From a virus, in IMG/VR virus record IMGVR_UViG_3300021960_005844, positions 1-22,587 of that record: DNA of 22,587 nt; one strand, written 5' to 3'. The notes below the pieces were generated by a model that saw only the letters and a program-made list of their open reading frames with translations, made no database searches and had not been told where the DNA came from. The number at the start of each line of letters is the position of its first letter. Positions within the stretch are counted from its first letter, which is position 1. Below, piece by piece: positions 2,420 through 20,553 of the stretch. Both the position numbers and the translations under genes were made by a program.

Positions 2420-2420
2420 A

Positions 2421-2868: not shown

Positions 2869-2869
2869 A

Positions 2870-3061
2870 TTATTTACCCCACTTACTTTCCATTTCTAAA
2901 TTTAATTGAACATCAATATCTGACTCTGCTTTATCGCATTGTTCTTGTAGTTCATCTCTCCATACTATTGCCTTATCTTTAGCAGTAGCAAGATCATTAT
3001 TATCAATTGCGTCAATAATTTCATTTAACTTATCAACGTCTTGTAACATTACATTTATCAT
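2870..3061 (-). CDS. Small acidic helical protein, 63 aa
   Basis: A clear AAGGAG lies 7 nt before ATG. The product (MINVMLQDVDKLNEIIDAID ... ELQEQCDKAESDIDVQLNLE) is short, acidic and probably a two-helix bundle or coiled coil. There is no signal peptide or membrane segment. It sits 19 nt downstream of the acidic 121-aa gene and directly upstream of a membrane ORF. Function unknown. Confidence 0.7.
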   Translation of the reverse strand: MINVMLQDVDKLNEIIDAIDNNDLATAKDKAIVWRDELQEQCDKAESDIDVQLNLEMESKWGK

Positions 3062-3080
3062 AGTTTACTCCTTGTTATTA

Positions 3081-4667: not shown

Positions 4668-5472
4668 ATTGAAACTTTAAAGTATGATAAGCAGTTCCAT
4701 TTTGTATTTCTTCTATGGTAAATTGATGTTCAGTAATATACTTTAACCATTCTTCTACTGTCTTACGGCCTGCTCTAAAAGGTTTCTCTACAAACTTTAG
4801 ATTACGTGATGATATAGGCCATACACAGTTTCGTTGATCTGCAATTACTGGTACCATATTTAGAATAGCGTCTATGGCAGATAAACTCATATTGGTTACT
4901 ACACAATGACAATCTTTTAAATCATCTTTTATATCTGTATTCCAAAATTCATTACCTGGTCTTGGTTTGTTTCGTACTCGTATTTCTCTATTTGTATATT
5001 TTTGTAATTCTGTTTTAATACCTTCAATCCAATCGTTTTGATTTAGGTCGTTCATATGTAAAGTAACTGTTTGAGATGAAGGACATATTAATACGTGTTT
5101 TGTTTCACCTGTATGCCAACCTTTAAAGTCTGCGTCTATGCCTTGTTGTCTTATTTTTGTTAATCGTTGTCCATTACCTACTGCACCTTTAGTGGTGTGT
5201 ATTGCACCTTTGACTATTCTAAAATAAGTCTTATCGTAATCTAATATTTTAGGTTCTGGATATCTTTGTATTTGTTGTGTGATATAACCTACATCTACAT
5301 ACCACCATTCTTCTTCTTTGATGATACATTCTTTGATAAGTTCTATATTCTTACCTGCTAATCCCCAAAAGAAATGTATAGGTCTATCTTTGTCTTGCCA
5401 ACCTTTTTGTATGGCAGGCCAAATTTGATGAGATAGACATAACTTCCAATCCATATTATGAGTGATTATCAT
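4648..5472 (-). CDS. Capsule-type glycosyltransferase-like protein, paralogue A, 274 aa
   Basis: The start at 5472 is chosen because its ATG overlaps the stop of the upstream paralogue (ATGA); the longer open frame would run 75 nt into that gene. The C-terminal half has the GT-B-like pattern seen in capsular polysaccharide transferases of the KpsS/KpsC or CDP-glycerol type: KHVLICPSSQ, then a helix and REIRVRNKPRPG, then CVVTNMSLSAIDAILNMVPVI, and a final HQFTIEEIQNGTAY. It is clearly paralogous to the genes at 5469-6278 and 14355-15389. The KPHP motif of the third copy is replaced by RNKPRP. The family assignment is by pattern memory and not certain. Confidence 0.6.
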   Translation of the reverse strand: MIITHNMDWKLCLSHQIWPAIQKGWQDKDRPIHFFWGLAGKNIELIKECIIKEEEWWYVDVGYITQQIQRYPEPKILDYDKTYFRIVKGAIHTTKGAVGNGQRLTKIRQQGIDADFKGWHTGETKHVLICPSSQTVTLHMNDLNQNDWIEGIKTELQKYTNREIRVRNKPRPGNEFWNTDIKDDLKDCHCVVTNMSLSAIDAILNMVPVIADQRNCVWPISSRNLKFVEKPFRAGRKTVEEWLKYITEHQFTIEEIQNGTAYHTLKFQYESTKK

Positions 5473-6278
5473 TGTACTTTTCTCCAGGCTGTACCATTCT
5501 CTATTTCTTGTAACGTAAATTGATTTGCCAATAACGTATCTATCCAATCTAATCTACAAGGTGAATATAATGGTTTTTCTATTAAACTTAAATCTGTTTC
5601 TGATACTGCAACTCCCATAGAAATAGGGTCGCAAAAACTAGGTACACCATTTAATACTGCGTCTAAACAAACCACAGATTGAAACGTAACACAAGCATAG
5701 GCCTTTTCTAAATCTGATTCTAATGGTGTCATACTTGTTTTGGGTCTTACCTTTATGTTTCGTTTAGTGTGTTGTTTTATTTTATTTACAGTATCATTTA
5801 ACCAGTTAGGTATGTTATGATATTTTAATTGATGTTCTGAAGGTGGACATACAAGAATATAATCACCATCATACTTCCAATCTTTTATATCTATATGATC
5901 TTTATATTTTTCAATTCGTTCATAATCATCATCATAAAGTTTTTTAATCCCTTGTACGTGATAGTTGTTTTTAGTTATACGATAAACTTTATCATTGACA
6001 ATACTTGAAATGCCGTGTCTGTTACCTAAAAAATAAGAGTGATCGAAGTAATAATAATCTTGGTTTTGTTTTCTACATTCTTTCATTATATCTGCTGTGC
6101 CTCTTAATATACCAAATACTGCACACGGATAATCTTTTACTGATTTAAATGTAGGCCATTCTGTCTTTTGATATTGTTCTACGGTCTTAACTTTTTGATG
6201 TAGAATACCTTTAACACTTTTAACAAATGCTTTAATAGGTATATCTGTAATCTCTCTTGTTTCAAAACCTTGTATCAC
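5469..6278 (-). CDS. Capsule-type glycosyltransferase-like protein, paralogue B, 269 aa
   Basis: Tandem paralogue of the next gene downstream. Shared landmarks are an early VFGILRGTADIMKECRKQN (FFWGLAGKNIELIKEC in paralogue A), DYILVCPPSE, a KRNIKVRPK strand, ACVTFQSVVCLDAVLNGVPS, IEKPLYSPCR and a C-terminal NQFTLQEIENGTAW. No membrane segment; predicted cytoplasmic. The basic pair before the conserved strand is kept, but the KPHP His is replaced (VRPKTS). The start ATG overlaps the stop of the preceding GT-A glycosyltransferase (ATGA). Donor and acceptor are unknown. It may extend or prime the same glycan as its neighbours. Confidence 0.6.
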   Translation of the reverse strand: MIQGFETREITDIPIKAFVKSVKGILHQKVKTVEQYQKTEWPTFKSVKDYPCAVFGILRGTADIMKECRKQNQDYYYFDHSYFLGNRHGISSIVNDKVYRITKNNYHVQGIKKLYDDDYERIEKYKDHIDIKDWKYDGDYILVCPPSEHQLKYHNIPNWLNDTVNKIKQHTKRNIKVRPKTSMTPLESDLEKAYACVTFQSVVCLDAVLNGVPSFCDPISMGVAVSETDLSLIEKPLYSPCRLDWIDTLLANQFTLQEIENGTAWRKVQ

Positions 6279-6949
6279 TTCAAATTCACTTTTACTGTTT
6301 TATGATAAAGATTAAACCAATCTATGGTATAATCACAACCTTTGTAATCTTCAAAATAAGGTCCACCTTTTGTATAGTGAACACATTTTACGTTATCTTT
6401 ATATTCATATTCTCCTACTAACCAATTCCATTCTAAAGGTATTTCTCCTATTAGATGTTCACCCTCTAACCATTTAAATTGATGTAGTTCTAATCCTGTT
6501 GCTTTGTTTACATAATCAGGTGTAAGTTGTGTACACTTTTTACAATTCAGTAACATAAAACTAGACCAGTTTTTCTTTTCATATTTTGTTTGTACTTGAT
6601 TTAAAAACTTTGTTTCACCTTTAGGTGTATAATCGTGTTTACATACTTGAACGGCATATCTATCATCTCGTAATCTCCATAGTTCGGCTATATCTGCCTT
6701 CATTAACATATCACAATCCATAAACAAGGCCCAGCCTTGATAGTTCATTAAATGTGGTATGATAAATCTACTAAATGAAAACTCCGTAGATGATAGATTA
6801 TTGCGTTCTCTCACAAAATCGTCTTTGATTGTATTTAAAGCAATAGGTGTTATACTTACAGGTTTTGTACTATTCTGTAATATACTTTCTGATAACACGT
6901 GATATGCTATCTTCTCTTTATTATCGTATCCTATAAAAACGTTTATCAT
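6275..6949 (-). CDS. GT8-like glycosyltransferase, 224 aa
   Basis: The N-terminus MINVFIGYDNKEKIAYHVL and the DxD motif in ALFMDCDMLM (D78, D80) are typical of GT-A-fold transferases related to GT8/LPS glycosyltransferases. FSFSRFIIPHLM lies just before the DxD, and the C-terminal HYTKGGPYFEDYKGCDY contains the His-Gly-Gly region commonly near the donor phosphate. Cytoplasmic, full length for short members of the group. The ATG overlaps the stop of the NUMOD3-like ORF (ATGA) and has a poor ribosome binding site, so translation is probably coupled to that ORF, whose own late promoter would then also drive this gene. Confidence 0.8.
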   Translation of the reverse strand: MINVFIGYDNKEKIAYHVLSESILQNSTKPVSITPIALNTIKDDFVRERNNLSSTEFSFSRFIIPHLMNYQGWALFMDCDMLMKADIAELWRLRDDRYAVQVCKHDYTPKGETKFLNQVQTKYEKKNWSSFMLLNCKKCTQLTPDYVNKATGLELHQFKWLEGEHLIGEIPLEWNWLVGEYEYKDNVKCVHYTKGGPYFEDYKGCDYTIDWFNLYHKTVKVNLK

Positions 6950-7299
6950 AATTTTGCCTTTCTTTCAGACCACCATAATTTCATTCGTTGTTTGTGTTTA
7001 TTTAATCTTTCTTCATCAAATTTAGGAGAAACTCTACTTTTTGGATAATTATTTTTATATCCTGTCATACCTTTATTCCAACAATAACCTATTTTTTTAC
7101 CTTTATTCCAAGGCTCAACACCATACATATGATTATTTTCACCTTTATATAATTCAGCATATGATAAGGGAATAGTATTAACTTTCGTAAAATATTTTGA
7201 GATTTGTTTGTCTGTTAAACTATTTTTAATACCAAAGACATTGTTAAGTCCTTCTACAAACTTTCGTCTTTTATTTGATCTATAAATATTTTTAGACAT
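6946..7299 (-). CDS. NUMOD3-like orphan, homing-endonuclease-derived, 117 aa
   Basis: The start at 7299 is set by a near-perfect TAAGGAGGT ribosome binding site 4 nt upstream; the open frame continues beyond it but has no such support. The basic N-terminus (MSKNIYRSNKRRKFVEGLNN) is followed by GENNHMYG (53-60) and a doubled tryptophan motif, PWNKGKK (63-69) and CWNKGM (73-78). The GENNxMYG/PWNKGKK signature is typical of NUMOD3 DNA-binding modules of phage GIY-YIG and HNH homing endonucleases. No GIY-YIG or HNH catalytic residues are visible, so it is either a remnant or a free-standing DNA-binding protein. It interrupts the glycan island, and its stop overlaps the next glycosyltransferase. 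Confidence 0.65.
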   Translation of the reverse strand: MSKNIYRSNKRRKFVEGLNNVFGIKNSLTDKQISKYFTKVNTIPLSYAELYKGENNHMYGVEPWNKGKKIGYCWNKGMTGYKNNYPKSRVSPKFDEERLNKHKQRMKLWWSERKAKL

Positions 7300-7303
7300 A
7301 GTG

Positions 7304-7312
7304 ACCTCCTTA
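7304..7312 (-). promoter_or_regulatory. Strong ribosome binding site (TAAGGAGGT)
   Basis: The minus strand reads TAAGGAGGT, then CACT, then ATG at 7299. It is the closest match to the anti-Shine-Dalgarno sequence in the window and fixes the start of the NUMOD3-like ORF. Most neighbours have much weaker sites. Confidence 0.85.
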
Positions 7313-7332
7313 CAGGTTGTTATGTTTAGGGG

Positions 7333-7352
7333 GTGATGGTTACCGCCATCAC
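7333..7352 (-). other. 5'-leader stem-loop upstream of the NUMOD3-like ORF
   Basis: A perfect 7-bp inverted repeat (GTGATGG / CCATCAC) with a 6-nt loop lies between a late-promoter box and the strong ribosome binding site. With transcription starting near 7359, the hairpin would sit about 7 nt from the mRNA 5' end, a position suited to protecting the message or affecting translation. It is followed by CCCCCT rather than a U-tract, so it is not a typical intrinsic terminator. Confidence 0.6.
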
Positions 7353-7364
7353 TTCCGATATTAA

Positions 7365-7372
7365 TATTTATA
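7365..7372 (-). promoter_or_regulatory. T4-type late promoter box TATAAATA
   Basis: An exact TATAAATA on the minus strand starts at the base right after the cupin stop codon, in a 73-bp gap. In T4-like phages this octamer is the whole late promoter, read by host polymerase with the gp55 sigma factor. Start is expected about 6 nt downstream, near 7359, giving a leader of about 60 nt that contains the stem-loop and strong ribosome binding site. Confidence 0.65.
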
Positions 7373-7738
7373 TTATTTAACATCTTCATTAACTCTATGA
7401 CCAACAGTTTCTCTTTCAATATCCTCGTGTGAAAACTCAGCCCAATACAATTCAAACGCTACACCATCCTCTATACCTATAAATTGATGATATAGGCCAG
7501 GTTTAATTCTAGTAAAGTCGCCTGCCTTTAATGTTGTTTCATCAATCAGTCCTTCTTGTTTACCTTGTTGCCAAGTTCGAACCATCATCTTACCTGACTC
7601 TACATAAAACCCATTCCACTTAAACTTATGTTTATGTTTAGAACAAGCAACATTCTTTTTAAATTCTATTCTATGAAATTCTAATACACCGTTTGCGTGG
7701 ATCAATTCTGTTTGACCCCATATTTTACCTGCTTTCAT
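7373..7738 (-). CDS. Single-domain cupin (sugar-phosphate isomerase-like), 121 aa
   Basis: A compact beta-barrel cupin. Motif 1 is SKHKHKFKWNGFYVESGK, with H35, H37 and E47 as likely metal ligands; motif 2 contains PGLYHQFIGIEDG with H84. The layout is closest in style to the cupin_2/type II mannose-6-phosphate isomerase domain. A role in sugar metabolism is inferred from neighbours: it sits downstream of GDP-mannose dehydratase and a glycosyltransferase. Good AAGGAG before the ATG, 1 nt from the upstream stop. It could also bind a nucleotide sugar without catalysis. Full length for a stand-alone cupin. Confidence 0.7.
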   Translation of the reverse strand: MKAGKIWGQTELIHANGVLEFHRIEFKKNVACSKHKHKFKWNGFYVESGKMMVRTWQQGKQEGLIDETTLKAGDFTRIKPGLYHQFIGIEDGVAFELYWAEFSHEDIERETVGHRVNEDVK

Positions 7739-7739
7739 A

Positions 7740-8465
7740 TCAACTCCTTCTATTTAACCATTCTGGACTATTCTTTTGTTCTTTTCTTCCACCTTTTCTA
7801 TGATCTATGTATGGGTGAATTAAACTATCTCTTGCCATTATATGTCCACTCACTCCATCTCCTCTAGGTATTTCTTTATACTCATTAACATTCTCTTTAA
7901 AATGTTTTCTTGTAGCGTCTAAAGTATGACAATCTGTATAGGCCTTTAAATTATAAACTTTATCTGTTACATATAAGTCTGTATAATGTTTAAAAAAATC
8001 ATTTGCATATGATTTGGTATTATCAAATGCTAAAAATCCTGTTTCTGTATATTGTTTAGGCCTATCATAAAACGCTAGAAATTTATCAGGTGGTAAAAAA
8101 TCATTGTACCATTGTTCTGGTATTTCTTTCATAAACACACTATCACTATCAATATAAAATATACGATCAGCATATTTTCTACTTGCATTTTGAGCAAATA
8201 CTTTATAACAAAATCTTACTGCGTCATATGAAAACTTTTCTTTTGGTTTGTGTTTATTTCTTTCTACAAATTTTTTACATTCTGGTTCTTCTTTAAATAA
8301 TGAAACATAAGTAACATTCCCTATTGAAGAATAGTTTTGTAGATCATCTTCAACATAAATGTATAAAGGTATCTTTTGATTTGTTTTGCTATATGACTTA
8401 ACAAGTTGATGAGCATACTCGTCATATAATCTTTTATTAAATGTGGTTACAAAAATATCTTTCAT
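7740..8465 (-). CDS. GT-A-type glycosyltransferase, 241 aa
   Basis: Starts MKDIFVTTFNKRLYDEYAHQ and has a DxD-type motif in RIFYIDSDSVF (D106, D108), placing it among nucleotide-sugar transferases of the GT-A fold. Before this lies SYDAVRFCYKVFAQ, matching the helix that normally precedes the DxD strand. The C-terminus has IDHRKGGRKEQKNSPEW, a basic Gly-Gly segment likely to contact the donor pyrophosphate. Cytoplasmic. The ATG overlaps the gmd stop (ATGA), so it is co-translated with the nucleotide-sugar enzymes and may use the sugar they make. Exact GT family not assigned. Confidence 0.75.
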   Translation of the reverse strand: MKDIFVTTFNKRLYDEYAHQLVKSYSKTNQKIPLYIYVEDDLQNYSSIGNVTYVSLFKEEPECKKFVERNKHKPKEKFSYDAVRFCYKVFAQNASRKYADRIFYIDSDSVFMKEIPEQWYNDFLPPDKFLAFYDRPKQYTETGFLAFDNTKSYANDFFKHYTDLYVTDKVYNLKAYTDCHTLDATRKHFKENVNEYKEIPRGDGVSGHIMARDSLIHPYIDHRKGGRKEQKNSPEWLNRRS

Positions 8466-9463
8466 TGATAATATCTTCTTAAATCAGCCTCTACCATATC
8501 AATCATTAAAGATTGTACTGTATGTTTAGGTTTCCAATCTAATATATTTCTTGCTTTAGTAGCGTCACCTTGTAATATATCTACTTCGGCAGGTCTAAAA
8601 TGTTTCTTATCCGTAGTGCAAATTAATATATCTGTATCTTGTTCAAAACATTCATCTTCTTTCCAATAATATTTTATATTTAAATAATCTAAAGTCATTT
8701 CTAAAAACTCTTTTACAGTATGAATAACACCAGTTGCTAAAACAAAGTCATCTGCGTGTGTATGATTCATTATCTTGTACATACCTTCAACAAAGTCCTC
8801 AGCGTGTCCCCAATCTCTTTTTGCATATAGATTGCCTAATATAATAGGTCTTTGTTCTTTTTTCCATAATGCAATACCTTTAGAAATCTTACGAGTTACA
8901 AAATCTTCTCCTCTCATAGGACTTTCGTGGTTAAATAATATACCTGTACTTGCAAACATTTTATACGACTCTCTATAATTGATTGTAATATGATGACCAT
9001 ATAACTTTGCAACACCATAAGGACTTCTAGGCCAGAATTTAGTTGTTTCTTTTTGAGGTGTTTCGTGTACTTTACCATAAAGTTCACTTGTACTTGCCTG
9101 ATAAAATTTTATTTGAGGATTGATCTGTCTAATACTTTCTACTATTCTTAATACGCCCATAGCGTCTATTAATGTAGCAAGTTCAGGTTGTTCAAACGAT
9201 AAACCTACAAACGATTGAGCGGCTAGATTGTACACTACATCTGGTTTTGTTTTTTCTATAGCTCTTCGTATGTTTGCTTGATCTATAACATCTAGTTCAA
9301 CAAATTCTATATCATCTGTAATACCCATTTCATCAAGTCGCCAATATTTGTTTGTTGTACTTCTTCTTTCACCACCAAAGACTTTATAACCTTTAGATAA
9401 TAAAAGTTTAGCAAGATAACTGCCATCTTGGCCAGTAACACCTGTAATTAATGCTCTATTCAT
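8462..9463 (-). CDS. gmd: GDP-mannose 4,6-dehydratase
   Basis: Converts GDP-D-mannose to GDP-4-keto-6-deoxy-D-mannose, the branch point to fucose, rhamnose, perosamine and colitose. An extended SDR: NADP-binding TGVTGQDG (7-14), the catalytic Thr and Glu in ASTSELYG (T125, E127), and YxxxK in SPYGVAK (Y149, K153). The family-diagnostic LFNHESPMRGEDFVTRKIS follows (canonical members have SPRRGETFVTRK), then KRDWGHAEDFVEGM. The length of 333 aa is normal. AAAGGAGAT precedes the ATG, which overlaps the stop of the DegT-fold gene. No mannose-1-phosphate guanylyltransferase is visible, so host GDP-mannose is presumably used. Confidence 0.95.
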   Translation of the reverse strand: MNRALITGVTGQDGSYLAKLLLSKGYKVFGGERRSTTNKYWRLDEMGITDDIEFVELDVIDQANIRRAIEKTKPDVVYNLAAQSFVGLSFEQPELATLIDAMGVLRIVESIRQINPQIKFYQASTSELYGKVHETPQKETTKFWPRSPYGVAKLYGHHITINYRESYKMFASTGILFNHESPMRGEDFVTRKISKGIALWKKEQRPIILGNLYAKRDWGHAEDFVEGMYKIMNHTHADDFVLATGVIHTVKEFLEMTLDYLNIKYYWKEDECFEQDTDILICTTDKKHFRPAEVDILQGDATKARNILDWKPKHTVQSLMIDMVEADLRRYYQ

Positions 9464-10617
9464 CTTATCTCCTTTATAATATTATAGACTTCATCAATGT
9501 TATCTTTTAAATCTCTAACATCATTACCTATAAACAAACCATTATCGTGTATATAGTTTGCAACATCATAATCATTGTTATCAATATAATCTAGGTATTT
9601 AATAACAGGATTCTTCATAAAGTTTCCTGCAACAATTGGTCTACTTTCTATTTCGTTTTCTTTAAATTTTTGTACAATTAAATCTCGTTTGCCTTTTAGA
9701 TGATCTTCAAATACTAATGAAAACCCAAACCAACTTGATCGACCTACTTCTTTTTGTGTAATCACACCAGGCATTTGTTCAAACTTTTGTTCAAAGTATT
9801 CTGCATTTCTAACTCGTTGTTCTCTCATATTAGGCCACTTTTCAAGTTGCACACTACCTATTGCACCACTCATTTCTAAAGGTCGTACACTATAACCTGG
9901 AGTAACAAACGTAAAACTATCTTTAAATGAATCACCTGTCTTTTCATAGATAGAATTATTATCAGGTAAATCTCTACACCAACCGTGAGCTCTTAATGAT
10001 CTTAAAAAATCTGCGTCTGCACCATTTTGACAAGCAATCATTCCACCTTCCATTGTTTGTAAATGATGACTAAAGAAAAAGGAGAAACTGCCTAAATGAC
10101 CTGCCGTACCTGTGTACACGCCTGTATCGGTTACTGCACCTAAACTTTCACAGTTATCCTCTATTAATAATAGATTATGTTTTTCTGCAATCTCATTTAA
10201 ACGTTCATAGTTACAAGAATTGCCTAGTAGATTAACTGCAAAGATAGCACAAGTATCTTTTGTTATTGCGTTCTCTATCTTATTTGGATCTATGTTTAAC
10301 GTTTCTTTGTCAATATCTACAAAGTTTAATCTAAATCCATATTGATGTACAGGAAAGAAAGTTGTTGACCAACTAACTGCTGGTACAATAATATCTCCTT
10401 TTAGATTGTATTTGTATTTAAGTAATGCAAGTATTAAAAGATTAGCAGTAGAACCACTATTGACCATCACGGCGTCTTGGCATTTAAAGTAATCGCAAAA
10501 CTCTTTTTCAAATTGTTTTACTTTAGGCCCCATTGTATAACGGCCACTTTTAATAACTGATTGTATTGCGTCTAATTCTCTTTGATCCCAAGTATCACAG
10601 GCTAATGGATATTTCAT
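9460..10617 (-). CDS. DegT/StrS-fold enzyme, likely 4-keto-6-deoxysugar 3-dehydratase (ColD-like)
   Basis: A fold-type I PLP protein of the DegT/DnrJ/EryC1/StrS family: NSGSTANL (53-60) and IEDNCES (D154 for the pyridine nitrogen). The segment that normally holds the Schiff-base lysine reads FSFFFSHHLQTMEGG, so the aligned residue is H184, not Lys. His at this position is the mark of PMP-dependent 3-dehydratases such as ColD, which turns GDP-4-keto-6-deoxymannose into the 3,6-dideoxy product. The iron-sulfur cysteine cluster of the RfbH/E1 type is not apparent. Next to gmd, the substrate would be the gmd product. A true aminotransferase is unlikely without Lys. Preceded by a late-promoter box and AAGGAG. 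Confidence 0.8.
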   Translation of the reverse strand: MKYPLACDTWDQRELDAIQSVIKSGRYTMGPKVKQFEKEFCDYFKCQDAVMVNSGSTANLLILALLKYKYNLKGDIIVPAVSWSTTFFPVHQYGFRLNFVDIDKETLNIDPNKIENAITKDTCAIFAVNLLGNSCNYERLNEIAEKHNLLLIEDNCESLGAVTDTGVYTGTAGHLGSFSFFFSHHLQTMEGGMIACQNGADADFLRSLRAHGWCRDLPDNNSIYEKTGDSFKDSFTFVTPGYSVRPLEMSGAIGSVQLEKWPNMREQRVRNAEYFEQKFEQMPGVITQKEVGRSSWFGFSLVFEDHLKGKRDLIVQKFKENEIESRPIVAGNFMKNPVIKYLDYIDNNDYDVANYIHDNGLFIGNDVRDLKDNIDEVYNIIKEIR

Positions 10618-10637
10618 AATATTCTCCTTATTAAATT

Positions 10638-10645
10638 TATTTATA
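10638..10645 (-). promoter_or_regulatory. T4-type late promoter box TATAAATA
   Basis: An exact TATAAATA on the minus strand overlaps the TAA stop codon of the asparagine synthetase gene. The DegT-fold gene starts at 10617, 20 nt downstream, with AAGGAG between. Start near 10632 would leave a leader of about 15 nt, as is common for T4 late promoters. It would drive the dehydratase, gmd, glycosyltransferase and cupin genes. Confidence 0.65.
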
Positions 10646-12455
10646 TAGTCATATTAAATACTTTTTTCCATACTGCAAAATTTAGTATAGTAAATAATTC
10701 TTTTTGTTTTCTCATACCTGGAGGAAATTTAGATCCTACAGGTGGTGTAAAGTTTCTATTGTTACAATATATGTTTTCAACTTTATCATTATTAAATTCA
10801 AAAATATCTTGTACTTCTTTATCTTTTAATGTTTCTATTATATATTGTCTTAATAAACTATTATCTTTACCTGGATGATCTGCCGTACCTATTATTATTT
10901 CATCTGTTGGAAATCTCCATCCTGTTTTCTTTTTATCAGTAATATACTTAGGCAATTTGTTTGTATAAGCAGTTTTAAAAAAGAATTTAGGAGCAAATCC
11001 TCCTCCTAATTCTTTACTAGCTCCACACTTTATACGACCAGGTATACTTCTTATAAAATCTCTAAAAACTTTTAACATAAATGGAAATCTTCCTTCCATA
11101 CTAAAGTTCATACCTAATTTATCGTTACGAATAAAAAAATCATCACACAAGGTATTTAAACATTCTATATACATCATATCATTAATATTATCTCCCTGTA
11201 AACCTCCTGTAGGCAACCAAGAGTTTAAATAATCCATTTGTTCTTTAAGTGTTATTTCTAATTCTGGGTTTTTTAAATTATCATTATTCATACCCAAAGA
11301 ATTTAATTTAGTTTCCCATTTACCCATACCGTGATGTTTATATCCAGTTAATACTTCATCTCCTCCATCACCACTTAATGTAACAACAATACCGTGTTCT
11401 GATAAAAATTTATTTGTATTATAGTATGTTGTAAAACTTTTACCTTGTCTAGGTTCTTCTAACGCATAAAAAGTATTGTTTATTGAATCAACATAAGATT
11501 GTTCATTTTGAAATAGTTGATGATTTGAAACTTTTAAATCTGCACAATATCTTTTTGCAACATTACTATCTTCATTTAATTTACTATCAGGTAAAGATAC
11601 ATCAAAAAAAGATGTAAATGTATTAGGATTATTTTGTAATTGATTCATCTCATATAAAATAGACGTACTATCTAAGCCGCCACTTAAAAATAAACCTATA
11701 TTTCTTCTACCCATTAAAGTCATTTTAACAGCTTGATGTAATCTTTCAGTACATTCTTTTAATAACTCATCATATTTTGACGCTGTTATATTAAATAATA
11801 AAGGTATAGTATTTAAATTATTTAAGTTAAATGAAGTTTCTGAATTAGTAATAACATTAATAGTTTTAACTTCACCAGGAACTATTTTTTTAATGCCTTC
11901 AAACAAAGTCAAATAACCTGAATTGTATCCTTGTTTATAATAATGTTTTAACGCTTGTTTACAAATCTTTCTTTTAAATCCTATCTCTAATAAACTTTTA
12001 ATCTCGGAAGAAAAACATAGCTTATTATCTTTGTAACCATAATAGATAGGTTTTATACCATTACTATCTCTTGCTAGTATTAATTGTTTTGTTGTTTTAT
12101 TATAACAGGCAAACGCAAACATACCATCAAGTTTGTTTATAAAATCTATACCTTGTAATTTTAATCCTACTGCTAATACTTCGGTGTCTGTATTTGTTTG
12201 AAACTGATAATTTAAATCGTTTTGTAACTCTTTATAGTTATAGATTTCACCATTATAAACTAAAATTAAATCTTCATATAACCAAGGTTGTTGTGAGTTG
12301 ATTTCTGTATCTACAATAGATAAAAGATTATGGCCTAAAGTGATGTGTTCATCTGACCAAGAACCATTACCATCAGGCCCTCTATGATGAGCCTTAACTA
12401 TCATCTTGTTTATATCTTCTTTGTTATTATATAATAGACCGTGAATTGCACACAT
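10641..12455 (-). CDS. asnB: Glutamine-hydrolysing asparagine synthetase / amidotransferase
   Basis: The ATG at 12455 is chosen because it places Cys at position 2 (MCAIHGLL), the N-terminal nucleophile of class II glutamine amidotransferases after Met removal; an upstream GTG would add six residues and block this. Glutaminase motifs HHRGPDG (23-29) and LVYNGEIYNY (65-74) follow, then the synthetase domain with ATP-pyrophosphatase SGGLDS (258-263) and a later LSGDGGDEVLTGY. The length of 604 aa is normal. Known reaction: Asp + Gln + ATP to Asn. In polysaccharide loci similar proteins may amidate sugar acids, and the glycan setting here makes that a real alternative. Overlaps the FkbM gene by 29 nt. 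Confidence 0.85.
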   Translation of the reverse strand: MCAIHGLLYNNKEDINKMIVKAHHRGPDGNGSWSDEHITLGHNLLSIVDTEINSQQPWLYEDLILVYNGEIYNYKELQNDLNYQFQTNTDTEVLAVGLKLQGIDFINKLDGMFAFACYNKTTKQLILARDSNGIKPIYYGYKDNKLCFSSEIKSLLEIGFKRKICKQALKHYYKQGYNSGYLTLFEGIKKIVPGEVKTINVITNSETSFNLNNLNTIPLLFNITASKYDELLKECTERLHQAVKMTLMGRRNIGLFLSGGLDSTSILYEMNQLQNNPNTFTSFFDVSLPDSKLNEDSNVAKRYCADLKVSNHQLFQNEQSYVDSINNTFYALEEPRQGKSFTTYYNTNKFLSEHGIVVTLSGDGGDEVLTGYKHHGMGKWETKLNSLGMNNDNLKNPELEITLKEQMDYLNSWLPTGGLQGDNINDMMYIECLNTLCDDFFIRNDKLGMNFSMEGRFPFMLKVFRDFIRSIPGRIKCGASKELGGGFAPKFFFKTAYTNKLPKYITDKKKTGWRFPTDEIIIGTADHPGKDNSLLRQYIIETLKDKEVQDIFEFNNDKVENIYCNNRNFTPPVGSKFPPGMRKQKELFTILNFAVWKKVFNMTI

Positions 12456-13143
12456 AATTAGTTTCCGTTTCACTTAACTTATAAGTCATATTTTCATCAA
12501 CTATAAAGTTTAAATCTTTTATTGTTTTTAAAACATTAACATCTGTAAGTTCAATCAATACTGATTTACACTTTTTAATTGTTTCAACTGCACCTTGTAA
12601 TACTTTAAGTTCTATACCATCTACATCTATTTTAATATAATCAGGTTGAGGTATAACTTTTGTTTCAATTAAATGATCTAATGTAAATCCAACACATCCT
12701 TGTTTTAATTGATTTGGTTTATCTATGGCATAGTCATTATGAGATTGACCAGGTACCATTGACATTAAAGATAGATACTCAATACTATTAACATTACTTA
12801 ATGCAAAACCATATCCTTGTATTCGATTTTGTAGATTGTTTAAATAAATATTTGTATATAATTCTGCAAAGTTTAATGCTTGAGGTTCAAACGCATAAAC
12901 ATTATGACCTTTTTGACCTGCATATAAAGAATACACTCCTATATTTGCACCTATATCTACAAAGTTACTATTTGATTTAAATGAATTGATCCATTCTAAT
13001 GTTTTAGGTTCTTTTGTATAAAAAGATTTAATACGTTTAGAAATAACTCGGCCTACATTATGAAATTTAAGACCATTAACTTCTTCATAATCTATTTGAT
13101 AATCTATTTTATCACCTGTTGCATTATAAATTGTTTGTTTCAT
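12427..13143 (-). CDS. FkbM-family methyltransferase, 238 aa
   Basis: A SAM-dependent O-methyltransferase of the FkbM family, often found in polysaccharide loci where members methylate sugar hydroxyls. Motif I is NFVDIGANIGVYSLYA (around 60-75), with E86 in AFEP binding the SAM ribose. The second diagnostic segment is DYIKIDVDGIELKVLQGA (168-185), which matches the family pattern KIDVEGxExxVLxG. Full length and cytoplasmic. Its ATG overlaps the stop of the 2OG-oxygenase gene (ATGA), linking it to the other modification enzymes. Target sugar or peptide unknown. Confidence 0.9.
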   Translation of the reverse strand: MKQTIYNATGDKIDYQIDYEEVNGLKFHNVGRVISKRIKSFYTKEPKTLEWINSFKSNSNFVDIGANIGVYSLYAGQKGHNVYAFEPQALNFAELYTNIYLNNLQNRIQGYGFALSNVNSIEYLSLMSMVPGQSHNDYAIDKPNQLKQGCVGFTLDHLIETKVIPQPDYIKIDVDGIELKVLQGAVETIKKCKSVLIELTDVNVLKTIKDLNFIVDENMTYKLSETETNYVCNSRSII

Positions 13144-13826
13144 TTTTTTAATATCACTACATTAAATAATTGTCTGTGTAAATCATTCTCGTTCTTAACT
13201 TGTGTTACACCGTGCCATCCATCTGGTGTGTTTTTAAATAATAAAGAATAATTACCTACAACAGGATAAGATAATGACTCTTTAAAATTATGAGATTCAG
13301 GATTCATATCTTTGATAAGTTTCTGTTTATAAAAAATTGTTTTACCACCAAAATCTTCTTGCCATCCTTCAGGCATAAAGTAAAACAAATGTGATCCATA
13401 TTTACCAATACTATCTACGTGAGGTGAAACATCTAAACCACTTTGTGTTCTATGAAAATCAAAACGTATATTATATTCTTTTATTTGTAAAGTTTCTTTT
13501 ATCCATCTTTGATATTCTCCTAATGGATCTAATATAGATGTACAAAGTTCTTGCCATAATTCAGGAAGTTGATTTAACTCTACTTTATAACTTTTAAAAT
13601 ACGGACTTTGTTTATTGTTATAAACACACATAAACCTTCTACAATGTGGCCTTTGATTTAATTTTCTTGTTTCAGGAAATTCATTTTTAAAAAGAACATC
13701 ATCTGGAAAACTATCTAATAATTCATAAAAAATATTATCATTTAAAAACCCAAATATATGCTCGTGAGGAGCATAATCTTTTTTATTATAAAATTCTTTT
13801 AATTCTTTTGTATTAAATCTTATCAT
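13140..13826 (-). CDS. 2-oxoglutarate/Fe(II)-dependent oxygenase, 228 aa
   Basis: The facial triad is visible: HxD in VSPHVDSIGKYG (H136, D138) and the distal His in TPDGWHGVTQV (H205), followed by R218 in DLHRQLFNVVI, which fits the Arg that holds 2-oxoglutarate. GNYSLLFKNTP before the distal His forms the usual strand. The N-terminal 120 residues are not recognised. Such enzymes hydroxylate amino acids, sugars or nucleobases. Placement between two methyltransferases in a glycan locus suggests a small molecule or sugar substrate, but a virion or tail-fibre protein target is also possible. Overlaps the upstream methyltransferase by 14 nt. Confidence 0.85.
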   Translation of the reverse strand: MIRFNTKELKEFYNKKDYAPHEHIFGFLNDNIFYELLDSFPDDVLFKNEFPETRKLNQRPHCRRFMCVYNNKQSPYFKSYKVELNQLPELWQELCTSILDPLGEYQRWIKETLQIKEYNIRFDFHRTQSGLDVSPHVDSIGKYGSHLFYFMPEGWQEDFGGKTIFYKQKLIKDMNPESHNFKESLSYPVVGNYSLLFKNTPDGWHGVTQVKNENDLHRQLFNVVILKK

Positions 13827-14358
13827 TTTGAAATACTAATCCGTTCTCTTTCCAAAACTCTCTTTGCATAGTAGATTTAAGTTTAGATTTACTTGTCAAG
13901 TCTGCCCTTAATCTAAAACCATATTTATTGAATAACTCAATCCAATAATCTAAAGGTTCACAATTTACGTGATGATGTCCTGGTTTGCCAGGTTCTGAAT
14001 ATGTGATAAAAACATACTTTGCATTTTCAATTAAACTCATCCAATTATCTTCATATTCTTTTGCCACGTGTTCAACAAATTCACAACACCAAACTAAATC
14101 ATATTGTTCTGTTAATTGATACTTACCTTTTGTAAAATCGTGTATAACAAATAGTTCAGGTTTATCTCTTGTTAAAGTATAATCACCATCTATACCTAAT
14201 ACTTTTAAGCCTAATCTATCTGCCTCATACACTTGCCCACCTGGACCACAACCTATATCTAACATAGATTGACAACCAAGTTCTTTTGCAAACTCTAATA
14301 GGCCTGTATCAATATGTGTACGGCCTTTATGTCCTCCTAAATGTTCTGGTAAACTCAT
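13813..14358 (-). CDS. Class I SAM-dependent methyltransferase, 181 aa
   Basis: A compact Rossmann methyltransferase: motif I MLDIGCGPGG (32-41), acidic GIDGD (D58) for the SAM ribose, and post-motif YDLVWCCEFVEHV, typical of the Methyltransf_11/12/25 group. The C-terminus contains GHHHVNCEPLDYWIELFNKYGF, common in methyltransferases acting on sugars or small molecules. The substrate cannot be inferred from sequence. The ATG overlaps the stop of the capsule-type glycosyltransferase gene (ATGA), and it is followed by a 2OG oxygenase and an FkbM methyltransferase, so these three likely form a modification unit. Confidence 0.9.
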   Translation of the reverse strand: MSLPEHLGGHKGRTHIDTGLLEFAKELGCQSMLDIGCGPGGQVYEADRLGLKVLGIDGDYTLTRDKPELFVIHDFTKGKYQLTEQYDLVWCCEFVEHVAKEYEDNWMSLIENAKYVFITYSEPGKPGHHHVNCEPLDYWIELFNKYGFRLRADLTSKSKLKSTMQREFWKENGLVFQNDKI

Positions 14359-15389
14359 AATTCTAATAACTCATCTATATATTTAAAAATACTTTGATTT
14401 GAAAATTCGTTAAATGAAAATTCAGTATAACTCATTTCTTCATACCAACTCTTTACTTCTTCAGGTGTTGCATAATATGGATCTTCTATATTTTTTATAT
14501 CTATATTTTTTAAATTGTATCCAAAATTATATTGAGATGTAAAACAAGGTATACCTAAATGTATTAATTCAAAAATAGATGTACTATTATCTATAACTGC
14601 ACAATAAATTTCAGATGAAATATCTTTTATAGTTGTTTCTTTAGATAGTACATTATAATCTTTAAAATTAAACCTAGACAATGGATGTGGTTTAACTAAT
14701 ATTTCTCTTTTTGTATATTGTTTTAATTCTTCAATTGTATCTTTAACGAAATCGTCAACTGGTTTTGTACTTGTAGGATCATTTTCTAATCCTGGACATA
14801 ATAATATTTTACCTTGTTTATTATTTCTCCAAGTAAAATTATCTATAACAGGTTTTATATCTTTTAAAGCTAAAAAGTTATATTTGTAAAACTCATCTAG
14901 TCTATCACTTCCTTTTGGTTTACAAAATGTACCTATACCGTAAGTCCAATGATTTAAAGCCATTCTATAATAAAAAGGAGAAACATCTTTCCAATGTTTT
15001 TTATTATCTTTTATTATTCTTATTCTACTTAATGTAGCAGTTTCTATAACAATAACTTTCTTATTAATAGATTTACAGTAATTAACAACAAACGAATTTA
15101 ATAGTTCTAACCAAGCTTGTCGTCTTTGGTTACCATCTTCAGCGGTTGGACAATCTTTAGTACCTTTTGGACTCCATATTCTATTAATATCATTACTACC
15201 CCAAGTACCAAATATTATAACAGCGTCAGCATTATTAATTTTGTATAAATCTATTATATCAATAATTTTATTATCGTTACTTTTAAGTTTAATAGAATGT
15301 AAATCGTAAATTCCTGAACCTAAATTAGTTAACGTATTTTCTAATTGATTTAAAGCAGTTGATGTTCCTATTGTAACAAGTTTTTTCAT
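14355..15389 (-). CDS. Capsule-type glycosyltransferase-like protein, paralogue C, 344 aa
   Basis: The best-preserved member of three paralogues. The C-terminal GT-B-like half has GKILLCPGLEN, KREILVKPHPLSR (KPHP at 233-236), and CAVIDNSTSIFELIHLGIPC (263-282), the last two resembling the KPHP and nucleotide-phosphate-binding Ser/Thr motifs of capsule polysaccharide and CDP-glycerol-type transferases. The N-terminal half begins MKKLVTIGTSTALNQLENTL and contains IIFGTWGSNDINRIW. It differs from the other two copies, which are shorter. Predicted to act in the cytoplasm on polysaccharide or teichoate-like substrates. It opens the glycan island, and its ATG overlaps the stop of the ParB-like gene. 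Confidence 0.65.
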   Translation of the reverse strand: MKKLVTIGTSTALNQLENTLTNLGSGIYDLHSIKLKSNDNKIIDIIDLYKINNADAVIIFGTWGSNDINRIWSPKGTKDCPTAEDGNQRRQAWLELLNSFVVNYCKSINKKVIVIETATLSRIRIIKDNKKHWKDVSPFYYRMALNHWTYGIGTFCKPKGSDRLDEFYKYNFLALKDIKPVIDNFTWRNNKQGKILLCPGLENDPTSTKPVDDFVKDTIEELKQYTKREILVKPHPLSRFNFKDYNVLSKETTIKDISSEIYCAVIDNSTSIFELIHLGIPCFTSQYNFGYNLKNIDIKNIEDPYYATPEEVKSWYEEMSYTEFSFNEFSNQSIFKYIDELLEL

Positions 15390-16729: not shown

Positions 16730-17833
16730 TTATAGTTTAAATTTTTTAAACTGATCTTTCTTTACATCTTGTTTGACGCCACCAATGATATAAGATTCTA
16801 TTTCTGTTTCTTGTGGTGCGTTCTGTAACGACTTTGAATTTAACCAATGTTCTGTCCAAGGTAATGGATTGGTCTTTTGTTCATACACTTGGTCTAACTG
16901 TATAGCTCTCATTCTTCTATTTGCAATATATTCAACGTATTGATGTAATAACTTTTCTGATAAACCTATCATTGAACCTTGACTAAACAAATAAGTTGCC
17001 CAACGTTTTTCTTCTTGTACTGCGTCATCATACAATTTATAAACTTCTTTTTCACAATCTTTCATTATTTTTAACATCTCTTTATCATTTTCAAAGTCTT
17101 TCCAATTATTAATAATTCTTTGACTCATCGCTAAATGTTGTGATTCATCTCTAGCAATAAATGATATAATCTTTGCTGAACCTTCTAATAATTTAAGTTC
17201 ACCAAACGCAAACGAACAAGCAAACGATACATAAAATCTTAAACCTTCTAGTATGTTTACAGTTATCATAGCAAGATACAACTTCTTTTTCAATTCATAC
17301 ATATCTACTTTTTTAGAATCTATTATCCATTGATAACCATAATTGATTAAATCATCATACGTGGCCGTAACAGACTTTGCTCTACGTTCTATCTTTTCAT
17401 CTTCTATAATCGTATCAAATACTTCACTAGGATTAGCATATAAGTTTTTAATAATATATGTATAACTTCTACTATGGATTGTTTCAATAAAATCCCACGT
17501 TACAATACAACCTTCTAGTTCAGGCAAGGAACAGAATGGCAAAAATGCCAGACAAGGTCCTCTTCCTTGTACTGAATCTAACATTGTTTGATATTTTAAA
17601 TTAGAAGTAAATATAAATTTTTGTTCAGGTCTTAATTCTTGGTAATCATTTCTATCTTTTTGTAAAGATACTTCTTCAGGTCTCCAAAAGAAACCTAATT
17701 GTTGTTGATTAAGTTTGTCAAAGATAGGATACTTCATATTGTCATATCTTTGTACAGCCAAGTCAGGACCAAAAAACATCATCTGTTTTGTTGCGTCTAA
17801 TCCCTTGTCTTTATTGAACACACTCTTTGTCAT
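16730..17833 (-). CDS. nrdB: Ribonucleotide reductase class Ia, small subunit
   Basis: Makes the tyrosyl radical used by NrdA to reduce ribonucleoside diphosphates. All di-iron ligands match the E. coli pattern: D86 (MLDSVQGR), E117 and H120 with radical Y124 in ETIHSRSY, E196 in ILEGLRFY, and E230 and H233 in ARDESQH. The C-terminal tail (YIIGGVKQ ... KFKL) resembles the NrdA-docking tail of E. coli NrdB, which ends in FQL. The length of 367 aa is normal. AAAGGA lies about 14 nt before the ATG. Separated from nrdA by the speD-like gene, all three in one direction. Confidence 0.97.
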   Translation of the reverse strand: MTKSVFNKDKGLDATKQMMFFGPDLAVQRYDNMKYPIFDKLNQQQLGFFWRPEEVSLQKDRNDYQELRPEQKFIFTSNLKYQTMLDSVQGRGPCLAFLPFCSLPELEGCIVTWDFIETIHSRSYTYIIKNLYANPSEVFDTIIEDEKIERRAKSVTATYDDLINYGYQWIIDSKKVDMYELKKKLYLAMITVNILEGLRFYVSFACSFAFGELKLLEGSAKIISFIARDESQHLAMSQRIINNWKDFENDKEMLKIMKDCEKEVYKLYDDAVQEEKRWATYLFSQGSMIGLSEKLLHQYVEYIANRRMRAIQLDQVYEQKTNPLPWTEHWLNSKSLQNAPQETEIESYIIGGVKQDVKKDQFKKFKL

Positions 17834-17838
17834 TATTA

Positions 17839-18237
17839 TTATAATTTTCCTTTATTTAATCGTATAGGTTTTAAACCTGTTTCTCTATTTAAAAATTTGT
17901 AATCACATTTGACAGCAAAGAAATCATTTTTAATCTTTTCTGCAATCTTATATGGATCAAATTCAGCACAACTGTACACATCCAATTGCATTAATGCAGG
18001 ATTAGGTTCATCCCAAACGTGCATAGCAATATGACTTGTTTCTATCACAGCAATACCTGTGATACCTCTATTACCTGGCATATCACAATAAGCAACATAA
18101 GGTCCCATCATCAATTTCATTCCTATGGAATCAATTAAACCTTTAAACCATTCTGTTAATAACTCTACACTCATTGGCGGATTATTAATTTCGGCCCTAA
18201 TAATTAAATGTTTATGTATTAGGATACTATTTTCCAT
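17839..18237 (-). CDS. speD: SpeD-family pyruvoyl-dependent decarboxylase (AdoMet decarboxylase-like)
   Basis: Small bacterial-type S-adenosylmethionine decarboxylase fold. The self-cleavage region is GIAVIETSHIAMHVWDEP: S68 would become the pyruvoyl group, followed by H73 and C90 (DVYSC), which match the catalytic His and Cys. The residue before Ser is Thr where canonical SpeD has Glu (ESH). Classical product: decarboxylated AdoMet for spermidine synthesis. Some phage SpeD homologues are reported to decarboxylate ornithine or arginine instead, so the substrate is open. Lies directly between nrdA (start adjacent to its stop) and nrdB. Length of 132 aa is normal. Confidence 0.88.
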   Translation of the reverse strand: MENSILIHKHLIIRAEINNPPMSVELLTEWFKGLIDSIGMKLMMGPYVAYCDMPGNRGITGIAVIETSHIAMHVWDEPNPALMQLDVYSCAEFDPYKIAEKIKNDFFAVKCDYKFLNRETGLKPIRLNKGKL

Positions 18238-20553
18238 TTAAATTGTACAAGACTCGCAAGCCTCGTCCTCTACTTCTGGTTTGGTTTCTTCAGGTACATT
18301 GTCAACCCAACCAACAGGATGTGCTGGCTCATCTATATCACTCTTACCGTCATACGTATTTTGATAGTATGAAGTTTTCCAACCATACTTATACGTAGAT
18401 AATAAATCTTGTGCCATTACTGAAACTGGCACTTGGTTGTCATCATAATGTGCTGGGTTGTATGACCAATTACCCGAAATTGCCTGGTCAAAATATTTTT
18501 GCATTACTGCAACGATATTTATATATCCTTCATTGGATTTCAGGTCCCAAAGTAGAGTATAAAAGTTTTTTAATTTAGAATATTCTGGTACAATTTGTTT
18601 TAAAGGACCTTTTTTAGATTTCTTTACTGAAAGATAATCTCTTGGCGGTTCTATACCATTTGTTTCATTAGACACTACACTTGAAGATTCACTTGGCATT
18701 TGTGCCGATAGTGTACTGTGTCTTAATCCGTTATCTTTAATAGATAGTCTTAACTTCTCCCAATCATAAGTATATTTTCTTTTAACTAATTCATCAACAT
18801 CTTTTTTATAAGTGTCAATAGGTAATATGCCGTCTGCATACTTTGTTTTGTTAAAGTATTCACATCTACCTTTTTCTTTTGCAAGTTCATTACTTGCTTT
18901 TAATAAGAAGTATTGAAACCCTTCCGTTAATTCATCTACTAACTTCAAAGCATTCTTATCATCATACTTAACTTTGTTTTTAGCAAGATAGTGTGCAAGT
19001 CCTATGTAACCTATGCCTAAACTTCTTCTTGCCTTTGTTGATACTTCAGCGGCCAATACAGGATATCTTTGATGATCTATTATTTCATCTAACGCCCTTA
19101 CTGCTAAATCACACAATGGTTCTAATTCATCTACATAATTAATCTTACCAATATTGATGGCAGATAAAATACATAAAGCAATTTCACCTGTACCATCAAT
19201 ATGTTGTATTGGATCAGTAGGGAGTGTAATTTCTTGGCAAAGATTAGACATTGTAACTCTATCTTTAAAACTAGAGTGAGTATTACAATGGTCAATATTC
19301 ATTATGTAAATACGACCTGTTTCTGCTCGTTCTTTTAAGATGTCGAAGAAGAGCTCTTGGGCATTGATTTTTTTCTTTTTAAGGCTTGTCTTTCTCTCCA
19401 TAGACTCATACAACTTATCAAACTCGGGAGTCCCCCACGCACTATATAATTCGGGTACTTCGTGTGGTGAGAACAAAGTAATTTCTTGCTCATTTATAAA
19501 CCTTTCATAAAATAATTTTGATATTTGAATAGAGTAATCTAATTTTCTTACTCTATTATCTTCACTACCTTTATTGTTTTTAAGAACAATAATATCTTCT
19601 ATTTCTTGGTGCCATATAGGGAAGTGTACAGTAGCAGATCCACCTCTTACTCCATTTTGAGTACAACACTTAACCGTTGCTTCAAACTTTTTAAGAAAAG
19701 GAATAACACCTGTATGTTGTACTTCTCCACCTCTTATACGTGAATTGATACCTCGTATTCTTCCTGCATTAATACCAATACCTGCTCGTTGTGCAACATA
19801 ACGACCTATTGCCATATCACTACTGAAAATAGAAGGCAACGTATCATCTACATCTACTAATACACAACTAGCATACTGACGCATAGGAGTCCTAACCCCA
19901 GCCATAACGGGAGTCGGAATATTGATTTTAAATGTTGAAATGGCGTCATAATATTTTTTAACATAACTCATTCTTTTATTTTTTGGGTATTTTGCAAATA
20001 GAGTAGCCGCAATCATCATATACATAAATTGAGGCGACTCATATACTTTACCTGTGCTACGATCTTGTACTAGATATTTGTCTATCACTTGTCTTAAACC
20101 TGCATAGGTAAAATCATAATCTCTATCGTGTTTGATCCAGTATTCCATTCTATCAAAATCTCGTCTATCGTAATCAGCAAAGATTTGTTTATCGTAAAGT
20201 CCTAAATCAACAATTTTTTTAACGTGATCGTATAAGTGTGGATGATCCCATAATTTATTAAATATATCTTTTCTTAAAGAGTAAAGTAATAAACGAGCAG
20301 CCACATAGGTGTAATTAGGTGATTCTAAAGAGATTAAGTCTGAAGCAGACTTGATTAAAATTTGTTGAATTTCATCCGTAGTAATACCATCGTAAAATTG
20401 TAATCCACTATTCATCTCTACTTGTGAAGCAGATACACCAGAAATATCTTCCGTAGCGTGTTCCATCATATCGTGGATCTTTTCAATGTTTAAAGGTTCT
20501 AAACCTCTATCATTTCTTTTTTTGACATTAATTACTTCGCCTGCTACGACCAT
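18238..20553 (-). CDS. nrdA: Ribonucleotide reductase class Ia, large subunit
   Basis: Catalytic subunit reducing NDPs to dNDPs with NrdB. The N-terminal ATP-cone region (about 5-95, starting VINVKKRNDRGLEPLNIEKI) suggests allosteric control. The active site is complete: C230 in YASCVLVD, the NLCQE motif with N437, C439 and E441, and C461 in ALCILSAINIGK. The radical-transfer tyrosines are in WKTSYYQN near the C-terminus. The tail ends EACESCTI, a CxxC for thioredoxin or glutaredoxin. Length of 771 aa is standard. AAGGGGG lies 11 nt before ATG, overlapping the primase stop region. No intron or intein visible. Confidence 0.98.
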   Translation of the reverse strand: MVVAGEVINVKKRNDRGLEPLNIEKIHDMMEHATEDISGVSASQVEMNSGLQFYDGITTDEIQQILIKSASDLISLESPNYTYVAARLLLYSLRKDIFNKLWDHPHLYDHVKKIVDLGLYDKQIFADYDRRDFDRMEYWIKHDRDYDFTYAGLRQVIDKYLVQDRSTGKVYESPQFMYMMIAATLFAKYPKNKRMSYVKKYYDAISTFKINIPTPVMAGVRTPMRQYASCVLVDVDDTLPSIFSSDMAIGRYVAQRAGIGINAGRIRGINSRIRGGEVQHTGVIPFLKKFEATVKCCTQNGVRGGSATVHFPIWHQEIEDIIVLKNNKGSEDNRVRKLDYSIQISKLFYERFINEQEITLFSPHEVPELYSAWGTPEFDKLYESMERKTSLKKKKINAQELFFDILKERAETGRIYIMNIDHCNTHSSFKDRVTMSNLCQEITLPTDPIQHIDGTGEIALCILSAINIGKINYVDELEPLCDLAVRALDEIIDHQRYPVLAAEVSTKARRSLGIGYIGLAHYLAKNKVKYDDKNALKLVDELTEGFQYFLLKASNELAKEKGRCEYFNKTKYADGILPIDTYKKDVDELVKRKYTYDWEKLRLSIKDNGLRHSTLSAQMPSESSSVVSNETNGIEPPRDYLSVKKSKKGPLKQIVPEYSKLKNFYTLLWDLKSNEGYINIVAVMQKYFDQAISGNWSYNPAHYDDNQVPVSVMAQDLLSTYKYGWKTSYYQNTYDGKSDIDEPAHPVGWVDNVPEETKPEVEDEACESCTI

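Follow-up and report, generated by a model that had tools for sequence, protein, structure and literature searches.

A speD homologue between nrdA and nrdB of a probable pelagimyophage belongs to a group that includes a measured arginine decarboxylase

The window analyzed here, the whole 22,587-base stretch of a virus record, carries between nrdA and nrdB a speD homologue that probably encodes a small pyruvoyl-dependent L-arginine decarboxylase derived from AdoMet decarboxylase (SpeDA, of the HTVC201P type), which a pelagimyophage would carry as cargo. The sequence, its group, the kept catalytic residues and the predicted fold are results of this analysis; activity, substrate, self-cleavage, host and expression are inferred. 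The arginine reading is favored because the protein groups with that of phage HTVC201P (support 100/97, 52 rows), a measured arginine decarboxylase (PMC9992855); because it has Asp where a Pro distinguishes AdoMet decarboxylases (AdoMetDC) from arginine decarboxylases (ADC) and scores 45.6 bits, below the cut-off of 75.65, in the NCBIfam AdoMetDC equivalog TIGR03330; because its model matches the fold of T. maritima SpeD (1TLU) with a Z score of 13.9; and because the cellular genomes that carry relatives reach at best 27.5 bits for an OKR-fold decarboxylase, have PF02784 proteins that were LysA in all eight cases sampled, and in 24 of 30 cases have an agmatine-deiminase-family protein.

Results

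The gene and the two nrd genes lie on the same strand (Table 1). The ATG of the speD homologue abuts the nrdA stop codon TAA without a gap, and 5 bases separate its own stop codon from the nrdB start; co-expression with the ribonucleotide reductase is plausible. The product matched Pfam AdoMet_dc (PF02675) with 54.5 bits, above the gathering cut-off of 25, and also phrog_3125, "S-adenosylmethionine decarboxylase". The window NrdA shares 84.0% identity with that of Pelagibacter phage Mosig EXVC030M and 78.5% with that of HTVC008M, and the window primase is 60.2% identical to the Mosig primase. Because of this kinship with Pelagibacter phages, which also points to the host, the window most likely comes from a pelagimyophage. 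A long run of glycan-type genes occupies positions 3969-15389 of the minus strand; an asparagine synthase (PF00733) and a methyltransferase were identified in it by Pfam profile matches, and glycosyltransferase-, GDP-mannose-dehydratase- and aminotransferase-like ORFs were recognized by eye only.

Table 1. Features of the speD homologue and its neighbors, in window coordinates. Roles of residues are from PMC10407285.
Feature	Coordinates	Strand	Basis or remark
speD homologue, TSH (HTVC201P-type, SpeDA-like) group, 132 aa	17839..18237	-	ORF, ATG start
nrdA, class Ia ribonucleotide reductase large subunit	18238..20553	-	directly upstream of speD homologue
nrdB, small subunit	16730..17833	-	directly downstream of speD homologue
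Codon of Thr67, residue preceding the predicted cleavage serine	18037..18039	-	alignment
Codon of Ser68, predicted pyruvoyl source (T. maritima Ser63)	18034..18036	-	alignment; role PMC10407285
Codon of His73 (T. maritima His68)	18019..18021	-	alignment; role PMC10407285
Codon of Asp76, putative place of the Pro kept by true AdoMet decarboxylases	18010..18012	-	alignment
Residues 79-83, stretch with two more residues than other SpeD proteins	17989..18003	-	alignment
Codon of Gln84, putative place of the SpeDC-diagnostic Tyr	17986..17988	-	alignment
Codon of Cys90 (T. maritima Cys83)	17968..17970	-	alignment; role PMC10407285

The initial annotation had described a SpeD homologue between nrdA and nrdB with TSH at the cleavage site, the catalytic His and Cys kept and two residues inserted before the Cys, and the analysis bore out all of these points. 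The motif VIETSHIAMHVWDEPNPALMQLDVYSC reads IE-T67-S68-H, His73 and Cys90 are kept, and the spacing between these two residues is longer by two than in T. maritima, S-PM2 and other SpeD proteins. The Ser, His and Cys required in a class 1b SpeD are present as Ser68, His73 and Cys90; their T. maritima counterparts, Ser63, His68 and Cys83, are the residues of processing and catalysis (PMC10407285). Glu77 is also kept, four residues past the His as in T. maritima.

The AlphaFold2 model of the window protein reached a pLDDT of 88.7 from a 39-row alignment. The match to 1TLU covered 111 aligned residues with an rmsd of 2.1, and the protein is predicted to have the alpha/beta fold of T. maritima SpeD, which also ranks first by sequence alone. 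A phage SAM lyase fold (6zm9, Z 6.4) was set aside, being far under the AdoMetDC matches. Besides the fold, the T. maritima AdoMet decarboxylase shares with the window protein the Ser, His and Cys and the Glu at His+4, but it carries Glu and Pro where the window protein has Thr67 and Asp76, and it has two residues fewer. The SpeD of Synechococcus phage S-PM2 is likewise a small class 1b protein, from a T4-like marine phage, but it reads AESH and WPE, has two residues fewer and passes TIGR03330 (133.1 bits). The class 1a SpeD of E. coli is cut after Lys.

Activities have been measured for relatives of the window protein. The purified HTVC201P "AdoMetDC" decarboxylated L-arginine with a kcat/Km of 290 per M per s, and its close homologue BAR31446 raised agmatine threefold; no activity of the HTVC201P protein was detected on ornithine or lysine, and the protein did not restore spermidine in an E. 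coli speD deletion (PMC9992855). The same paper distinguishes three clades, one of true AdoMetDC, one of phage ADC, and one of phage ornithine decarboxylases (ODC) together with a Sinorhizobium phage AdoMetDC. It identifies some phage SpeD homologues as ODCs, that of phage UCP01 as acting on both arginine and ornithine, and the S-PM2 SpeD as a proven AdoMetDC. PMC10407285 assigns HTVC201P to a "potential fourth emergence" of ADC, places it together with SpeDC, the SpeD-derived ornithine decarboxylase, and describes SpeDA as being without the Pro that AdoMetDC conserves.

The window protein is 40% identical to the HTVC201P homologue (AXH71538) and shares with it the group, ETSHI, W-Asp-Glu, the two additional residues and Gln at Cys-6. 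They differ at position -5, where HTVC201P has Gln and the window protein Ala, and in location, since in HTVC201P, a podovirus of the Pelagivirus type, the gene is directly upstream of nrdA, whereas in the window it lies between nrdA and nrdB. HTVC201P scored 38.4 bits in TIGR03330 and phiN3 28.9 bits; phiN3 is a proven AdoMetDC, and a score below this cut-off is therefore an imperfect judge. The replacement of the conserved Pro by Asp76, whose correspondence comes from the alignment, is to be read knowing that the proven AdoMetDCs phiN3 and phiYS40 also lack a Pro there.

Viral contigs were scanned with six peptide patterns, none of which spans T-S-H, and 49 loci were obtained. All 49 carry T-S-H, which is therefore not a chance occurrence, and all 49 carry the signature TSHIxxHxWDExxPxxxQxDxY[ST]C, although one of the patterns (MHVWDEPN) spans W-D-E and thus gives no independent reading of this part of the signature. 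The 49 loci include L001, which nearly duplicates the window, the L001 contig (the same as L062) being 99.97% identical to it across 9246 bases. A tblastn search gave SpeD hits in 12 phage records, and the eight sampled (HTVC201P, 115P, 103P, 109P, 021P, 105P, Eistla and uncultured S35-C6) all carry the HTVC201P-type signature, i.e., TSH, Asp for Pro, two extra residues and Gln at Cys-6, as does the window protein. Across the aligned TSH rows (40 phage, 26 cell), Ser68, His73 and Cys90 are invariant and the Pro place is Asp in 66 of 66. In positions 3001-3109 of the HTVC109P record (L054, MH598805), the SpeD start is annotated at 3109, and frame and homology reach back to about 3004; the annotated start seems to clip the N-terminus.

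Thr before the cleavage serine had been regarded as an anomaly against a canonical Glu-Ser, and a survey of this residue in phage SpeD sequences had been proposed. Without pattern bias at this residue, the survey was possible in three scans (six-pattern, SpeDC-like viral and S-PM2-type); the others allowed only Thr or Glu, or partly Thr alone, and kept the best 80 loci, so that their Thr counts are biased. Thr was found in 49 of 49 TSH-type loci and Glu in 35 of 37 S-PM2-type viral loci, the other two being incomplete and without a readable motif. Glu is the rule in the S-PM2 type, but phiN3, a true AdoMetDC (PMC9992855), has Asp there in the alignment. Among cell loci found by HMM, 36 of 44 were readable and had, taking the first match per locus, 26 Glu, 9 Thr and 1 Phe. 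The anomaly did not stand: Thr is present in every TSH-group sequence read, in SpeDC-like proteins and in three Chloroflexota proteins (L359, L369 and L371). Thr was also rejected as a sure sign of substrate change, since these three, which are outside the tree, have it with neither the TSH nor the SpeDC signature; they read ATSH or ETSH and keep the Pro. The broader suggestion that the substrate had changed is well supported by the kinship with the HTVC201P enzyme (PMC9992855).

A maximum-likelihood tree was built from 83 rows and 121 columns (20 of the 103 aligned rows were left out) and rooted at the midpoint without an outgroup. All TSH rows (33 phage, 19 cell), including the window and HTVC201P, formed the single group cited above, within which the window belongs to a sub-branch of 15 rows (100/98) separate from the HTVC201P branch. 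With the midpoint root, the closest neighbors of the TSH group are the SpeDC-like rows together with phiN3 (99/93 for this union); the support for SpeDC-like rows plus phiN3 is 95/72. The deep order is limited by the few columns and by long branches (phiN3, P2559S, phiYS40). The five ornithine-decarboxylating phage proteins of PMC9992855 are absent from the tree, and none was seen among the phage tblastn matches listed (60 of 147 and 60 of 77). In the record "Microcystis phage MaAM05" (L060, MW495066), a speD, a second speD, speE and speB are consecutive at positions 932-3252, and the second SpeD is nearly identical to that of Vampirovibrio chlorellavorus (L208); this 274-kb "phage" record may be bacterial DNA.

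The diagnostic residues of SpeDC are, in order, Gln, Thr, Phe and Tyr (PMC10407285). A profile of seven pelagiphage proteins was run against 400 genomes of the phylum of L203 ("Chloroflexi bacterium"), 52 of which matched. The search yielded five SpeDC-like Chloroflexota proteins (L350-L353 and L357), all reading Q..ETS....HF.....Y.D.FSC in agreement with the printed order; they were recognized by the four printed residues, and their ornithine activity is presumed. By this agreement, the "2-Thr" of PMC10407285 would be the residue before the cleavage serine. The SpeDC-like gene of L357 (41.8 bits in TIGR03330) is overlapped upstream by a canonical SpeD frame (AESH, WPE; 96 bits), which also helped to recognize it. 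A viral scan with the five proteins gave eight loci. Three of them (L384-L386) have Asn before Ser; the five with Thr (L379-L383) are SpeDC-like, and four of these have the full diagnostic set by a strict pattern.

The SpeDC-like proteins share Glu-Thr-Ser with the window protein and are its nearest tree group, but they have Gln at -5, Phe after the His, Tyr at Cys-6 and no additional residues. At these sites the window protein keeps only the Thr, one of four, with Ala63, Val74 and Gln84 replacing Gln, Phe and Tyr; HTVC201P has two of four (Gln and Thr). The window protein is inside the TSH group, to which the SpeDC-like rows are adjacent, and not inside the SpeDC-like clade. These comparisons bear on the possibility that the enzyme is a pyruvoyl-dependent ornithine decarboxylase of the SpeDC-like kind making putrescine directly, or a dual ornithine/arginine enzyme. 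The tree neighborhood, the common Glu-Thr-Ser, the joint placement of SpeDC and HTVC201P in PMC10407285 and the phage ODCs and dual enzyme of PMC9992855 favor it, but the single matching residue, the separate existence of phage SpeDC-like proteins and the ornithine result reported for HTVC201P in PMC9992855 make it unlikely.

The position of the gene was compared across records. It is directly before nrdA in six Pelagivirus records, but even this adjacency rule is broken, as four genes separate speD and nrdA in HTVC115P and no nrd gene was found within the examined stretch of HTVC103P. Neighbors in IMG/VR were counted at loci flanked on each side by 1.5 kb or more, loci with shorter flanks (39 and 28) being excluded. 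At pelagivirus-type loci, adjacency to nrdA prevails (42 of 52): nrdA follows within 500 bases at 39 of the 52, and nrdA and nrdB enclose the gene at 3. The 88 window-group loci overlap between scans and so stand for fewer viruses, and the near twin of the window is counted twice among them; nrdA and nrdB flank the gene, each within 500 bases, in 12 of them, nrdB is next and nrdA 534-632 bases away in 5, both are further in 1, and no nrd gene was found in the examined flank in 70.

Mosig EXVC030M and HTVC008M, the nearest isolates by NrdA, share with the window the order primase-nrdA-x-nrdB and differ in what fills the gap. Where the window has SpeD, Mosig (L387 954-1753) has two hypothetical genes and HTVC008M (L388 3560-4734) a hypothetical gene and one annotated PurM; neither has an annotated speD in the gap, and neither is among the 12 tblastn records. 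Because the gap holds other genes in these isolates, the position says little about function, and the idea that it proves a link to DNA synthesis was rejected on this ground and on the 70 loci just mentioned. We interpret the nrdA-nrdB gap as a slot of the nrd operon in which cargo can be exchanged. No paper describing speD between nrdA and nrdB in pelagimyophages was found in the open-access literature searched.

The group also occurs in cellular genomes. From a scan of which the best 80 of 119 loci were kept, 49 of 80 had T-S-H together with the complete signature, and L199 gave no readable motif. The 49 come from records labeled Pelagibacteraceae, HIMB59, Thioglobus, Gammaproteobacteria, Neomarinimicrobiota, Phycisphaera and others. 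Phage contigs in MAGs may account for some of these loci, such as L140 (LSSG01000033, "Thermoplasmatales archaeon SG8-52-3"). The L140 SpeD is 65% identical to that of the window and groups with phages, and this archaeon-binned contig is perhaps a viral contig in the bin. The presence of the TSH group in marine bacterial genomes (Pelagibacteraceae, Thioglobus and other gammaproteobacteria) appears to be new here; no paper on the cellular group was found in the open-access literature searched.

Thirty of the 49 genomes were searched with profiles; their completeness is not given, and absences among them weigh little. Each of the 30 has one AdoMet_dc match of at least 40 bits, and eight have a second, weak one. 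Spermidine synthase matched with at least 90 bits in 15 of 30, and the curated cut-off was passed in 18, three of them weakly at 23-40 bits. The synthase gene lies no more than about 1 kb from the TSH gene in 14 of the 15, and 13 of those 14 have a second, class-1a-like SpeD, always below the TIGR03331 cut-off; the two that were read are both E-S-H. The gammaproteobacterial genomes G028 and G017 have divergent class-1a-like SpeD proteins (L330 and L331) that are roughly 250 aa long, read K-E-S-H and miss the same cut-off. The OKR-fold decarboxylase passed its cut-off of 27 in one genome (G004). PF02784 matched once in 27 of 30 genomes, twice in one and not at all in two, the LysA proteins sampled being above their cut-off; the exception with two matches, G016, has DS and arginase-family matches on the contig of the second. 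Six of the agmatine-deiminase-like proteins were sampled, and all were below the NCBIfam AguA cut-off of 381.8, two Pelagibacteraceae reaching 322 and 236 bits, two gammaproteobacteria 70 and 68, and the other two 165 and 162. The arginase/agmatinase family is present in 9 of 30 genomes and the deoxyhypusine-synthase family in 3 of 30. Arginase/agmatinase homologues have been reported in Pelagibacter gene clusters, and agmatine deiminase with N-carbamoylputrescine amidohydrolase in Fonsibacter gene clusters (PMC9992855). The cellular gene content fits arginine better than AdoMet decarboxylation; as evidence for arginine over ornithine, it is suggestive only.

Discussion

By analogy with HTVC201P and T. 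maritima SpeD, the proenzyme would cut its own chain between Thr67 and Ser68, and Ser68 would become the pyruvoyl group that forms a Schiff base with L-arginine. His73 and Cys90 would act in processing and in catalysis, like their counterparts in class 1b SpeD proteins. CO2 and agmatine would be released, and host enzymes would turn the agmatine into putrescine and further products. The gene in the nrdA-nrdB gap is probably exchangeable metabolic cargo expressed with the nucleotide genes.

Several observations caution against this assignment. The identity to the sole measured member of the group is modest, and the sub-branch of the window, itself well supported, is not that of HTVC201P. Resemblance between SpeD proteins need not mean a common substrate, as the action of the UCP01 protein on both arginine and ornithine indicates (PMC9992855). 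All the sampled agmatine-deiminase-like proteins fall under the AguA cut-off, two of them far under it (68-70 bits). TIGR03330 misses phiN3, and the tree has few columns and no outgroup root.

It is quite improbable that the gene specifies a SpeD-fold protein, processed or not, with another role, such as regulation, AdoMet binding or action on another amino acid substrate. Substrate shifts are common in the SpeD family (PMC10407285, PMC9992855), and the two additional residues with Asp76 and Gln84 remodel the His-Cys stretch group-wide, but the invariance of Ser68, His73 and Cys90 argues for retained catalysis, and one TSH-group member is an active decarboxylase (PMC9992855). Least probable is an ordinary AdoMet decarboxylase boosting spermidine together with the host SpeE, in spite of the retention of all processing and catalytic residues and of Glu77 and of the spermidine synthase genes close to TSH genes, since nearly all the genomes with that arrangement also have a class-1a-like SpeD, 15 of 30 lack a synthase match of at least 90 bits (three of these having 23-40 bits), the Pro is replaced, the TIGR03330 cut-off is missed and HTVC201P did not rescue speD (PMC9992855).

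Under the arginine decarboxylase reading, we put forward tentatively, as a possibility somewhat short of even, that the TSH group represents a separate bacterial emergence of ADC from SpeD, that it is the main polyamine route in streamlined marine lineages (SAR11-like and those we take to be SUP05- and SAR86-like, the records saying Thioglobus or Gammaproteobacteria), that it is circulated by phages, and that the nrdA-nrdB gap is one of its docking places. No other polyamine decarboxylase was found in those lineages among the 30 TSH cell genomes searched with the OKR-fold and PF02784 profiles.

The odd Thr is most likely a group marker common to SpeD-derived amino acid decarboxylases. The label "AdoMet decarboxylase", carried by all 12 tblastn phage records, is probably wrong as to function. 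With the cellular relatives of the pelagiphage ADC, the origin of the enzyme becomes testable, as does the route by which streamlined marine bacteria make polyamines.
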